Below are positions 24,263 to 38,393 of a stretch of 64,000 nucleotides of DNA, in pieces (positions within the stretch are counted from its first letter, which is position 1; each line of letters begins with the position of its first letter). The position numbers were made by a program, and so were the translations under genes. The notes under the pieces are model-generated. The model searched no databases and was not told the origin of the DNA. It worked only from the letters and a program-made list of their open reading frames with translations. The DNA is from Plantibacter sp. Leaf314 (GTDB lineage: Bacteria > Actinomycetota > Actinomycetes > Actinomycetales > Microbacteriaceae). The stretch lies in NCBI RefSeq assembly GCF_001423185.1, contig NZ_LMOB01000001.1, forward strand, positions 823,437 to 887,436. Direction: 5' to 3'.

Positions 24263-24299
24263 CGACGTCGAACCGACGGCGTGCGACAACGACCAGGTG

Positions 24300-24665
24300 T
24301 GGAGATGGGGGGAATTGAACCCCCGTCCACTGCTGTGATTCTGCGCCTTCTACGGGCGTATCCCTTAATGCGTTCTACTCGGCCCCGACCATTGACAAGG
24401 GCATCTTGGTCGACGGGCCCAGCCGAGGAAAAGTCCCGGATGACGTCGCGGCTCCGTCATCCAGCAAGTCCCCTAGATGACGCCAGGATCCGAGACGGGG
24501 ACACGCTCGGTCTGACGGACTATCGGGCTCGCTTAAGCAGCGAGGGCGAAGTCAGTGCGCTTAGAGTTGGCACTTGTTGTTTTGCAGAGATCGTTAACGA
24601 GATAACCCTGCATCCTCGACCCGCTTCTCGCAGTTTCGCAGGCAATGTCGAAACCGATCATCCCC
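24300..24665 (-). ncRNA. ssrA: tmRNA
   Basis: A 366-nt transfer-messenger RNA. The 5' end GGGGATG pairs with the 3' CATCTCC (discriminator A); GGTTTCGACA and the T arm GGGGGTTCAATTCCCCCC are the tRNA-like part. The open frame encodes the degradation tag ANSKRTDFALAA followed by TAA, close to the standard actinobacterial tag. It rescues stalled ribosomes with SmpB, whose gene lies just upstream on the same strand. CCA is not encoded. Confidence 0.97.
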
Positions 24666-27711: not shown

Positions 27712-28821
27712 CTACTCGGCTTTCGACATCGAACGCCACCGGATCCCGGCGGCGATGAATCCGTCGAGATCGCCGTCGAACACGGCTGCCGGGTTCCCCT
27801 GCTCGTGCTCCGTCCGCAGGTCCTTGACCATCTGGTACGGCGCGAGCACGTACGAGCGCATCTGGTCGCCCCAGCTCGCGGTGATGGTGCCGGCGAGCTC
27901 CTTCTTGGTGGCCGCCTCCTGCTCCTTCTGGATGAGGAGGAGTCGTGACTGGAGCACGCGCATGGCCGCGGCACGGTTCTGGATCTGGCTCTTCTCGTTC
28001 TGCATGGACACGACCGTGCCCGTCGGCAGGTGGGTGATCCGCACCGCGGAGTCGGTCGTGTTGACCGACTGACCGCCGGGGCCACTCGAGCGGAAGACGT
28101 CGACCCGGATGTCCGACTCGGGGATCTCGACGATCTCCGTCTCCTCCATGAGCGGGATGACCTCGACGGCGGCGAAGCTGGTCTGTCGCTTCCCCGCAGC
28201 TCCGAACGGGCTCATGCGGACGAGCCGGTGCGTCCCGGCCTCGACGCTGAGGGTGCCGAAGGCGTACGGTGCGTCGACCTCGAAGGTGGCCGACTTGATC
28301 CCGGCCTCTTCCGCGTAGCTCGTGTCCATGACGGTGACCGGGTACTTGTGCTGCTCAGCCCATCGCAGGTACATGCGGAAGAGCATGTCGGCGAAGTCGG
28401 CCGCGTCGACACCGCCGGCGCCCGCACGGATGGTGACGACGGCCGGACGCGGGTCGTACTCGCCGCTCAACAGGGTCTGGACCTCGAGGTCGCCGAGCAC
28501 CTTCTGGAGGCTGATGAGCTCCTGGCGGGCTTCCTCGGCCGACTCCTCGTCCTCGGCGTCCGTGGCGAGCTCGATGAGCACCTCGAGGTCGTCGAGACGG
28601 TTCGCGATGCTCGTGATCCGGGCGAGCTCGGACTGACGGTGGCTGAGCGCACTCGTCACCTTCTGCGCGTTGGTGGTGTCGTCCCAGAGATCCTGGGCAC
28701 CCGCCTGCTCGCTCAGCGTCGCGATCTCGGCTTCGAGACGGTCGACGCCGACGACGCTGCGGATGTCGTCGAAGGTCGAGCGGAGGGTACTGATCTGTGT
28801 GGAGAGGTCCAAGTCAAACAT
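27712..28821 (-). CDS. prfB: Peptide chain release factor 2
   Basis: A 369-residue class I release factor that ends translation at UGA and UAA. The stop-recognition tripeptide SPF (in [18 protein letters not shown]) and the catalytic GGQ ([18 protein letters not shown]) are present. The reading frame is continuous, so the frameshift autoregulation of E. coli prfB is absent, as is usual in actinomycetes. A TAGGCT box ends 8 nt before the ATG without a ribosome site, suggesting a leaderless or nearly leaderless message. It precedes ftsE on the same strand, gap 100 nt. Confidence 0.97.
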
Positions 28822-36090: not shown

Positions 36091-38004
36091 TCAGGCGTCG
36101 ACCGGCGCAGCCGACACCCCTGACGCCACGCCGGCGAGCGCGTGCCCTGCGAGCGAACCGAGGGTGCGGAGCCCGTCCCTGGACAGCACCGATTCCAGGT
36201 GTCCCTGCACCGAGGCGAACCCGCGACCGCGCATGGCGAAGACGTCGCCGGAGACGGGGTCCGCGGCGATCTCGACCCCGCCCACCGGCGCATCTCCCGA
36301 GGAGCGGGCCGTGAAGGTGTTGTAGAACCCGATCAACGACTGCTCGCCGAAGAGGTCGAGGTCGAGTTGCAGCCCCTGGCGAGGAGCGTCGAGTCGGGCG
36401 ATCGGCAGACCGAGCTGGATCGCCAGCACCTGGTGGCTCAGGCACACCGCGAGGAGGGGGGCACCGGCCGCGAGGCGTGCTGACACGATCTCGTGGAGGC
36501 GGCGGACCCGGGGCTCGGCGAGGTCGAGCGGGTCGCCTGGTCCGGGTCCGGCGACGAGCAGGTCGGCGTCCAAGCGCGAGTCGTTCACCGTCGACCAGTG
36601 CTCGACGTCGACGGTCATGCCGAAGTGGCGAAGTTGGTGGGCGAGCATCGCGGTGAACTCGTCCTCGGCGTCGACGATGATCGCGGAACGGCCGGACAAC
36701 GGACCGGTTGGCGCCGCGTGCTGGGGCTGCAACCAGAAGGGTGCGAGCCGCTCGTTGCGGGCCCGAAGCGCCTCCTCGACCCCCGGCTCGGCGGCGAGGT
36801 CGACCGTCGGGCCGAGCTCGGGCGGAGCCATGACGCCGAGCGCCGTGAGCACACCGGCCGCCTTCGCAGCCGTCTCGGCCACCTCGGAGACGGGATCCGA
36901 ATGCCGGACCAGCGTCGCCCCGGCGGGGACCCGGACGAGCCCTGCGTCGTCGAGGTAGGCCGTGCGGATGAGGATCGGGGCGTCGAGTTCGTAGTCGCCG
37001 TCGTCCATCGGGGTGAACAGCGCGAGGACGCCCGAATAATAACCGCGCGGGTTGCGCTCGTGTCGGGCGATGACGGCGCAGGCGTTCTGCATGGGCGACC
37101 CCGTGACCGTCGGCGCGAACATCGTCAGCCGCAGCACCTCCCGGACGTCGAGGTCGCTCGTTCCGGCCAGCAGGTACTCGGTGTGCGTGAGGCGCGACAT
37201 CTGCTTGACGTAGGGCCCGAGGATGCGTCCGCCGGATGCACAGACCCGGCTCATCATCTTCATCTCCTCGTCGACGACCATGAAGAGTTCCTCGGTCTCC
37301 TTGACGTCACCCAGGAACGCGCGGAACTCGTCGCCGGTCGCGCCGGAGCGCGGGTGGCGGAACGTCCCGCTGATGGGGTTCATCGTCACGGTCCGCTCGC
37401 CCGTCGACGCGTCGCGGGAGACGGCGACGTGCCGCTCAGGCGTCGCGCCGGCCATCGAGACCCCCGGCGTGTGCACGGCGAACGTCCAGTAGGCTCCGGT
37501 CTCCCCCGAGAGGAGCGCCCGCAACCAGGCGAGGACCGCGCGCTCGGCGGGCACCTCGGTCGTCGCGGTGAACTCGCGGCGGATGACGAAGTTCGCGCCT
37601 TCACCGCGGCCGATCTCATCCTCGATCACGCGGCGGACGATCGCCGCGTAGTCCTCGTCGGAGACGTCGAACCCGCCGTCGAGCAGCGGGACCACGTCGA
37701 TCGGCAGCCGGTCGAGCAACTCGCCGAGGGCGACCGACTCCCGTTCCTCGACAACGAGGCATCGCAGCGGCGCGCCGTCGTCCATCGCTGCGAAGCCGCG
37801 CTCACGCACCTGTCGGTACGGCACGAGGGTGAGGACCTCCGGTCGGCGTGCGTCGCCGGCCGCTCCGAGCGGGATGTCGGCGAGCGAGTCGACGTCGACG
37901 ACGTCGCCGGTGTAGAGGTCGACGGTGTCGCTGCCGTGGCGGCGGATCACCGCGAACGGGAAGTCGGGGCCGGCGTTCAGCACGCGGTTGAGCAGGGTGG
38001 TCAT
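36091..38004 (-). CDS. Fused anthranilate synthase-type enzyme, TrpE(G)/PhzE-like
   Basis: A 637-residue fusion. Residues 1-410 or so are the chorismate-binding domain (MNPISGTFRHP, KETEELFMVVDEEMKMMSRVC, TPMQNA-like GSPMQNACAVIARHERNPRGYYSG). From about 430 comes a class I glutamine amidotransferase (VAGPGPGDP, nucleophile in LLAVCLSHQVLAIQLG, FYNTF, then VQGHLESVL for His and Glu). The layout is that of PhzE and of fused Streptomyces TrpE(G). The N-terminal LLES feedback element of TrpE is not seen. Product is anthranilate or 2-amino-2-deoxyisochorismate; the Trp-codon attenuator upstream argues for anthranilate/tryptophan control. GAGGACACCACC precedes the ATG. Confidence 0.88.
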   Translation of the reverse strand: MTTLLNRVLNAGPDFPFAVIRRHGSDTVDLYTGDVVDVDSLADIPLGAAGDARRPEVLTLVPYRQVRERGFAAMDDGAPLRCLVVEERESVALGELLDRLPIDVVPLLDGGFDVSDEDYAAIVRRVIEDEIGRGEGANFVIRREFTATTEVPAERAVLAWLRALLSGETGAYWTFAVHTPGVSMAGATPERHVAVSRDASTGERTVTMNPISGTFRHPRSGATGDEFRAFLGDVKETEELFMVVDEEMKMMSRVCASGGRILGPYVKQMSRLTHTEYLLAGTSDLDVREVLRLTMFAPTVTGSPMQNACAVIARHERNPRGYYSGVLALFTPMDDGDYELDAPILIRTAYLDDAGLVRVPAGATLVRHSDPVSEVAETAAKAAGVLTALGVMAPPELGPTVDLAAEPGVEEALRARNERLAPFWLQPQHAAPTGPLSGRSAIIVDAEDEFTAMLAHQLRHFGMTVDVEHWSTVNDSRLDADLLVAGPGPGDPLDLAEPRVRRLHEIVSARLAAGAPLLAVCLSHQVLAIQLGLPIARLDAPRQGLQLDLDLFGEQSLIGFYNTFTARSSGDAPVGGVEIAADPVSGDVFAMRGRGFASVQGHLESVLSRDGLRTLGSLAGHALAGVASGVSAAPVDA

Positions 38005-38053
38005 GGTGGTGTCCTCAGGCTGGGACCGATCCGACAGGGCCTCCGAACGAGAA

Positions 38054-38075
38054 CGACCGCCCTGTCAGGCGGTCG
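38054..38075 (-). terminator. Attenuator terminator hairpin upstream of the trpEG-type gene
   Basis: Minus-strand CGACCGCC-TGACAG-GGCGGTCG: 8 bp perfect stem, 6-nt loop, then TTCTCGTT. It lies 31 nt after the leader-peptide stop and 50 nt before the structural gene. The 5' arm includes CCGCCT, which is also the sequence that pairs with the leader's AGGCGG. Confidence 0.75.
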
Positions 38076-38101
38076 AGTCGTCGTGTGTGCACGTGCGCGG
38101 T

Positions 38102-38116
38102 CCGCCTAGGAGGCGG
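38102..38116 (-). promoter_or_regulatory. Attenuator pause/antiterminator element
   Basis: Minus-strand CCGCCT-CCT-AGGCGG, immediately after the tandem Trp codons and spanning the leader stop. The AGGCGG arm (38102-38107) can pair with this first CCGCCT (38111-38116) or, if a ribosome stalls at the Trp codons and masks it, with the identical CCGCCT in the terminator's 5' arm (38067-38072). Thus hairpins 1:2, 2:3 and 3:4 are mutually exclusive. Confidence 0.7.
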
Positions 38117-38147
38117 GCCACCAGCTCGTTGCACACGTCGTTCGCAT
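38106..38147 (-). CDS. trpL: Tryptophan leader peptide
   Basis: A 13-residue peptide, MRTTCATSWWPAS, ending in TAG. The two successive TGG codons (38118-38123) are the sensor: low charged tRNA-Trp would stall the ribosome there and favour the antiterminator. Size, WW position and following hairpins equal those of known actinobacterial trp leaders. No ribosome site precedes the ATG, but TATGCT ends 7 nt upstream, so the transcript is probably leaderless. Confidence 0.78.
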   Translation of the reverse strand: MRTTCATSWWPAS

Positions 38148-38154
38148 GGAGCCG

Positions 38155-38160
38155 AGCATA
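38155..38160 (-). promoter_or_regulatory. -10 box (TATGCT) of the trp leader transcript
   Basis: Minus-strand TATGCT ends 7 nt before the leader-peptide ATG. The -35 region shows no match to TTGACA. Confidence 0.5.
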
Positions 38161-38259: not shown

Positions 38260-38341
38260 GCGGGAGTGGTGGAATTGGCAGACACGCAGGATTTAGGTTC
38301 CTGTGCTTTCGAGCGTGAGGGTTCAAGTCCCTTCTCCCGCA
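38260..38341 (+). tRNA. tRNA-Leu, anticodon TAG
   Basis: An 82-nt class II tRNA: acceptor GCGGGAG/CTCCCGC with discriminator A, D arm with TGGTGGAATTGGCA, anticodon loop ATTTAGG (TAG), a long variable arm TGCTTTCGAGCGTG and T arm GGGTTCAAGTCCC. CCA is not encoded. Reads CUA and related Leu codons. Confidence 0.96.
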
Positions 38342-38393
38342 CGCGACACCGTCGTACGCCGTTCCATCCCTCCCCCGACAGCAGGAGCTCCGC

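Follow-up and report, generated by a model that had tools for sequence, protein, structure and literature searches.

Candidate ribosome-mediated tryptophan attenuator upstream of a fused TrpEG-type gene in Plantibacter sp. Leaf314

On the minus strand of the window, the whole 64-kb stretch of Plantibacter sp. Leaf314 DNA that was analysed, a gene for a fused chorismate-binding and glutamine amidotransferase protein is preceded by a short open reading frame with two adjacent tryptophan (WW) codons and by a set of short repeats. This raises the question whether the leader is a tryptophan attenuator, and which enzyme it would control. A ribosome-mediated transcription attenuator governed by tryptophan very likely controls the fused TrpEG, which is probably the sole anthranilate synthase in this Plantibacter. 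We infer the tryptophan response, the transcription start and the enzyme activity from the anatomy of the leader, its conservation, a compatible geometry and the finding of no other trpE. The features of the locus are as follows.

38155..38160, minus strand: -10-like hexamer TATGCT of the putative leader promoter, ending 7 nt upstream of the leader ATG
38106..38147, minus strand: predicted leader ORF trpL, 13-residue peptide MRTTCATSWWPAS followed by a stop codon, with translation probably beginning at the 5' end of the RNA (leaderless)
38147-38145, minus strand: leader start codon ATG
38118..38123, minus strand: tandem Trp codons TGGTGG, the putative sensor, without variation in 80 distinct leaders that were themselves chosen for TGGTGG
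38111..38116, minus strand: segment 1, CCGCCT, forming the protector with segment 2 in the minimum-energy fold of the Plantibacter leader
38108-38106, minus strand: leader stop codon TAG
38102..38107, minus strand: segment 2, AGGCGG, a partner for segment 1 or 3 that overlaps the leader stop
38067..38072, minus strand: segment 3, CCGCCT, inside the 5' arm of the terminator
38054..38075, minus strand: predicted intrinsic terminator hairpin (3:4), CGACCGCCT-GACA-GGGCGGTCG, 9 pairs including one G-U
38046..38053, minus strand: T-rich tail TTCTCGTT
38012..38016, minus strand: GAGGA, 7 nt upstream of the fused-gene ATG at 38004
36091..38004, minus strand: fused chorismate-binding and glutamine amidotransferase gene, 637 aa (PF00425 and PF00117)

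The leader ORF ends in TGGTGG CCC GCC TCC TAG, and segments 1 and 2 flank the loop CCT. The tandem-TGG leader peptide of the original prediction is present on the minus strand, as is the hairpin CCGCCT-CCT-AGGCGG across the leader stop (arms 38116-38111 and 38107-38102). The single AGGCGG can pair with either CCGCCT, as had been claimed, and the sequence contains the competing hairpins 1:2, 2:3 and 3:4. The terminator carries the second CCGCCT in its 5' arm as described, but it is 9 pairs long rather than 8. It is separated from AGGCGG by a spacer of 26 nt, and a further stretch of 101 nt separates the leader stop from the start of the fused gene. The tail, with T at 5 of its 8 positions, is short and broken; it is weak here and longer in several relatives. 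A tRNA-Leu gene (anticodon TAG) at 38260-38342 on the plus strand is transcribed away from the leader and lies roughly 110 bp from the leader ATG.

A terminator scan of 601 bases returned exactly one site, at 38054-38075, against a mean of 0.1 in shuffled sequences. The 100-nt leader folds with -52 kcal/mol (z -4.07), and an equally good fold occurred in 0 of 200 shuffles. Because 126 of 1000 dinucleotide shuffles match helix 2:3, this helix is unremarkable by itself; helix 1:2 is matched 9 times, helix 3:4 13 times, and all three jointly never. The 22-mer running from TGGTGG to AGGCGG has one site in the genome at up to three mismatches. Its reversed control also occurs once, so only the exactness of the match is informative.

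An Rfam scan of the window gave only a tmRNA (24297-24665, minus strand) and two tRNAs, with no match to the leader at gathering score. A T-box or another Rfam RNA was considered and rejected; the best candidate at the leader was RcsR1, with 25.2 bits against the 60 required. The 19 strongest matches of a first covariance model, R1, stand at fused genes, and their leaders or identical ones were in the training alignment. These matches are not independent of the training set, and a second model, R2, was therefore built from 30 leaders of other genera without Plantibacter. R2 places the Plantibacter leader first in the window (38147-38033, minus strand, E 1.1e-19, E-values being rough). The second-best match in the window, at 27884-27946 on the plus strand, has an equally rough E of 1.1e-4.

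The leader was then compared across 104 loci with a homologue of the fused gene, 24 from whole-genome searches and 80 on contigs (the best 80 of 298), some genomes being represented twice. The original prediction would have been refuted by relatives without the WW codons and the shared repeats. Instead, a TGGTGG leader ORF lies upstream of the homologue in 102 of the 104 loci, and GGCGG begins 17-18 nt past the start of TGGTGG in 71 of the 80 distinct sequences to which the leaders collapse (alignment A1). The two loci without a WW leader are L039 and L058, the latter on a contig that ends too soon. L039 belongs to a 1.4-Mb genome (G033) whose fused gene sits on a long branch, and an NF010086 match at E 1e-60 is absent from that genome. 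Within the same family, Microbacteriaceae, a similar scan in front of canonical trpE genes found a WW ORF at 0 of 30 loci, which were the top scorers among the 110 genomes that passed the cut-off.

Across the 80 distinct leaders, 90.6% of cells are paired in helix 1:2, 90.0% in helix 2:3 and 95.4% in helix 3:4. Covariation in 1:2 and 2:3 does not go beyond shuffles, and 1:2 has no compensatory changes. Segments 1 and 2 are nearly invariant, in part because they overlap the codons for WWPAS and the stop; covariation therefore speaks neither for nor against these two helices. For helix 3:4, the covariation score is 0.145 against 0.071 in shuffles, and 36 cells are doubly changed against 19.0, neither value being reached in 500 shuffles. 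One pair holds 28 of these 36 cells, and the leaders share ancestry. Neither the count of changed pairs (3 against 2.1, with 72 of 500 shuffles as high) nor that of pair types is unusual. Thus the proposed comparison of relatives shows conserved Trp codons, but of the expected covariation only the 3:4 score rises above shuffles. Support for 1:2 and 2:3 is conservation and complementarity of sequence, not covariation. An unguided RNAalifold consensus of 30 leaders replaces 1:2 by another hairpin of 4 pairs (GGUG with CGCC).

A ribosome usually covers the RNA to about 15 nt past its P site. The 80 distinct leaders were folded with the RNA masked up to the expected reach of a stalled ribosome. 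When the ribosome is placed on the second Trp codon and the transcript extends as far as segment 3, helix 2:3 forms in 80 of 80 leaders, and with the ribosome on the first Trp codon it forms in 76. A ribosome placed at the stop codon leaves the terminator as the predicted structure in 79 of 80, although a loose count gives 2:3-like pairs in 24 of 80 nascent RNAs. These computed folds agree with the predicted mechanism, in which a stall at WW masks the first CCGCCT and frees AGGCGG. Complementarity, conservation and positional folding thus all point to 1:2, 2:3 and 3:4 as mutually exclusive helices. Once its sequence is complete, the terminator prevails in 73 of 80 leaders even in the stalled state, so that the antiterminator has to win kinetically and the switch depends on folding order. 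The trp attenuator of E. coli depends on folding order likewise. A longer folding window gives, for the stalled state, the terminator in 53 of 79 leaders and 2:3 in 41 of 79.

In the mechanism that we propose, transcription would begin at or beside the leader ATG, and a ribosome would load straight onto the 5' end. When charged tRNA-Trp is scarce, the ribosome would wait at WW and cover segment 1, and the emerging segment 3 would pair with segment 2 and pre-empt the terminator. When tRNA-Trp is charged, the ribosome would reach the stop codon and cover segment 2, 3:4 would form and transcription would end. With no ribosome present, 1:2 and the terminator would both form.

The leader ORF is probably leaderless, with transcription from at or next to its ATG, as judged by the fixed spacing of the -10 element. 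A TAnnnT hexamer ends 6 or 7 nt upstream of an in-frame leader start in 102 of 102 loci (the nearest start in 98; in 4 the next in-frame start, chosen for its -10), and the same spacing occurs at 0 of 733 other ATG or GTG codons in those regions. A Shine-Dalgarno-like tetramer precedes the leader start at 1 of 102 loci. Comparison gives the promoter pattern TGTGn-TAnnnT, with TGTG partly conserved and no clear -35 element; a scan with an E. coli sigma-70 model did not find a promoter at the leader. In the part of the S. lividans RNA-seq study considered here, trpL1 of trpE is leaderless and the mean distance from -10 to start is 6.3 nt (PMC8079986). The leaderless design is thus already known in S. 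lividans, and for Plantibacter it is suggested by this spacing.

Which enzyme the fused gene encodes is less evident from its sequence. The protein has a full-length PhzE-type sequence, and its closest solved structure is 3r74 (E 5e-167), which we take to be PhzE of Burkholderia. The source names of relatives are inconsistent, several of them being PhzE, and protein sequences are stated to give no indication of PhzE versus TrpE in the portion of PMC5958127 consulted. With the canonical TrpE model NF010086, the best E in the Plantibacter genome is only 5e-72, whereas 110 of 150 family genomes pass its cut-off. The cut-off of TIGR00564 is not reached in the Plantibacter genome either, which alone says little because just 5 of 14 control genomes pass it. 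The two other chorismate-binding genes of the genome score best as PabB and isochorismate synthase; with 326.9 against 328.4, the PabB-like protein falls marginally under its cut-off, and it might contribute some anthranilate.

Both trpB and trpD were found in the Plantibacter genome. Its his-trp operon reads hisG-hisF-hisI-Trp_oprn_chp-small membrane protein-trpC-trpB-trpA, where hisI and the small membrane protein were assigned from position and sequence. It lacks trpE and has no room for one; in another genome (G009), trpE lies directly upstream of Trp_oprn_chp. Because no canonical trpE was found in the genome or the trp operon, the fused enzyme is probably the cell's sole anthranilate synthase. 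Among 150 family genomes, 20 carry the fused gene. With canonical TrpE counted as present when an NF010086 match was stronger than E 1e-130, it is missing from 8 of these 20 against 9 of the 130 others, some of them incomplete (Fisher p 2.8e-4, uncorrected for kinship), and 12 of the 20 hold both genes. The fused gene thus probably encodes an anthranilate synthase, TrpEG, with a PhzE-like sequence, and gene content suggests that the attenuator controls a gene of the tryptophan pathway.

The alternatives differ in what they concede. The tryptophan attenuator may be real while the gene encodes a PhzE-type ADIC synthase for a secondary metabolite that has borrowed tryptophan control. The resemblance to 3r74, the PhzE names among relatives and TrpE models scoring far under their cut-offs for the fused protein would all fit, but the genome has trpD and trpCBA and yielded no canonical trpE. 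The scanned neighbours (a pilus-type ATPase, a cation efflux protein, a DedA protein and a YjeF-type protein) include no phenazine-type genes, and the fused enzyme of S. venezuelae is termed an anthranilate synthase, not an ADIC synthase, in the title of a paper. We consider an ADIC synthase improbable.

It is also rather improbable, slightly more so, that translation of the leader acts on translation of the gene by coupling or reinitiation, or works through Rho, and not through an intrinsic terminator. The T-tract is short and broken, and reinitiation at leader genes has been proposed for bacteria including Actinobacteria in the section of PMC4833913 consulted; against this stand the distance from leader stop to gene, the GAGGA ahead of the gene and the conservation of the terminator helix. 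Least credible, to the point of near dismissal, is an ordinary terminator beside a WW ORF that arose by chance. Hairpins are many in GC-rich DNA, and helix 2:3 alone is readily matched by shuffles, but the WW leader and its -10 spacing are kept across genera and families and a WW ORF occurs at none of the 30 canonical trpE loci scanned. Tryptophan attenuation of a fused anthranilate synthase gene accordingly remains the preferred reading.

Tryptophan attenuators and leaderless trpL are already published for Streptomyces, and the Plantibacter case joins this known type as a well-preserved example. The Streptomyces parallel drawn in the original prediction is in print: trpL1-trpE of S. lividans (leader MFAHSTRNWWWTAHPAAH), as described in the relevant part of PMC8079986, shares the tandem Trp leader, two hairpins, a T-rich stretch and a monocistronic trpE. 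The Plantibacter leader differs in ending with WWPAS, in a stop that overlaps segment 2 and in its CCGCC and GGCGG segments, and a second trpE was not found in the Plantibacter genome. The trpE attenuator of S. venezuelae, known here by name from references, is another close system. The Corynebacterium and Streptomyces trp attenuators in the first part of Seliverstov et al. 2005 (PMC1262725) share the competing antiterminator and terminator, a GC-rich terminator with T-tract and double or triple TGG; they have a conserved core gGCC-rGCy-GGCC and are also predicted upstream of trpS, and Microbacteriaceae are not named for trp in that part. In the S. meliloti trpL-trpE(G) system, according to the portion of PMC7298713 consulted, trpE(G) is also fused and the attenuated transcript also starts from the leader ATG, but this is a proteobacterium whose released leader RNA and peptide act in trans. 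Searches of open-licence papers found no published trp leader-peptide attenuator with Microbacterium and, among the matches listed, no paper on tryptophan biosynthesis or anthranilate synthase in Plantibacter.

Among 296 genomes of the class Actinomycetes, 109 have a strong homologue of the fused gene. At 86 examined loci (26 from the homologue search and 60 fetched from part of its list, 84 distinct places), a WW short ORF occurs at 55, and 54 of these also have a -10. Where a genome has at least two PhzE-type copies, exactly one has the WW leader in 9 of 9 examined. In a tree of 70 rows, 3 changes are required for the WW label: of the 11 rows that lack WW, 8 share a single branch, two from G263 pair with each other on long branches, and L039 stands among WW rows. 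One copy without WW adjoins a class II DAHP synthase, an EPSP synthase and a hydrolase, a setting reminiscent of phenazine-type pathways. A second such copy, at L158, has a fabG-like gene on one side and a fabI-like gene on the other. The pattern does not follow a simple rule: the WW leader with -10 occurs at 0 of 7 fetched fused genes of f23 and 6 of 16 of f33; two f23 genomes (G416 and G321) have a WW attenuator upstream of an unfused TrpE/PabB-type gene instead.

The covariance models also reach beyond the fused genes. R1 matches 41 of 150 family genomes at E <=0.01, nine weaker matches (L272-L280) being set aside as resembling plain terminators or unrelated DNA, and R2 matches 118 of 296 genomes at E <=0.001, of which the weaker ones may be plain terminators. 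Twenty non-fused matches picked from the upper part of the R2 results precede TrpE/PabB-type genes (11) or trpS (9, one weak), with a WW leader in 19 and a -10 in 14. Four further matches lie upstream of trpD (2) and trpS (2), and two R1 matches precede trpB, in G101 (L270, L289) and G140 (L271, L288). By sequence, then, similar WW attenuators stand upstream of trpD, trpS, trpB and unfused TrpE/PabB-type genes in other Actinomycetes. The trpB genes of G101 and G140 are stand-alone and lie behind WW leaders (MHSVSLWWTV; MQSWWAA, longer form MSRNAMQSWWAA) and terminators. TrpE was not found in genome G140, where the stand-alone trpB suggests tryptophan-controlled indole salvage.

More tentatively, and with somewhat less than even confidence, the leaderless WW attenuator may be a portable RNA module, without an Rfam match here, that goes with the enzyme committed to tryptophan in each case: fused trpEG in Plantibacter, and unfused trpE-type, trpD, trpB or trpS genes elsewhere. 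Loss of the operonic trpE in Plantibacter would then have left the entire pathway to an attenuated PhzE-like enzyme, and the terminated leader, a tiny leaderless mRNA, might also act in trans as in Sinorhizobium. The locus suggests that the entry enzyme of a pathway was swapped along with its regulation. The WW leader may serve as a sequence-only clue that separates tryptophan anthranilate synthases from inconsistently named PhzE-like enzymes. The many probably leaderless leader peptides compared here also bear on how a ribosome that initiates at the 5' end stays in step with RNA polymerase. In genome G094 (L269, L287:9154-9903), an attenuator with the leader MHMTTAWWPTFSVG lies before a methyltransferase-like gene.
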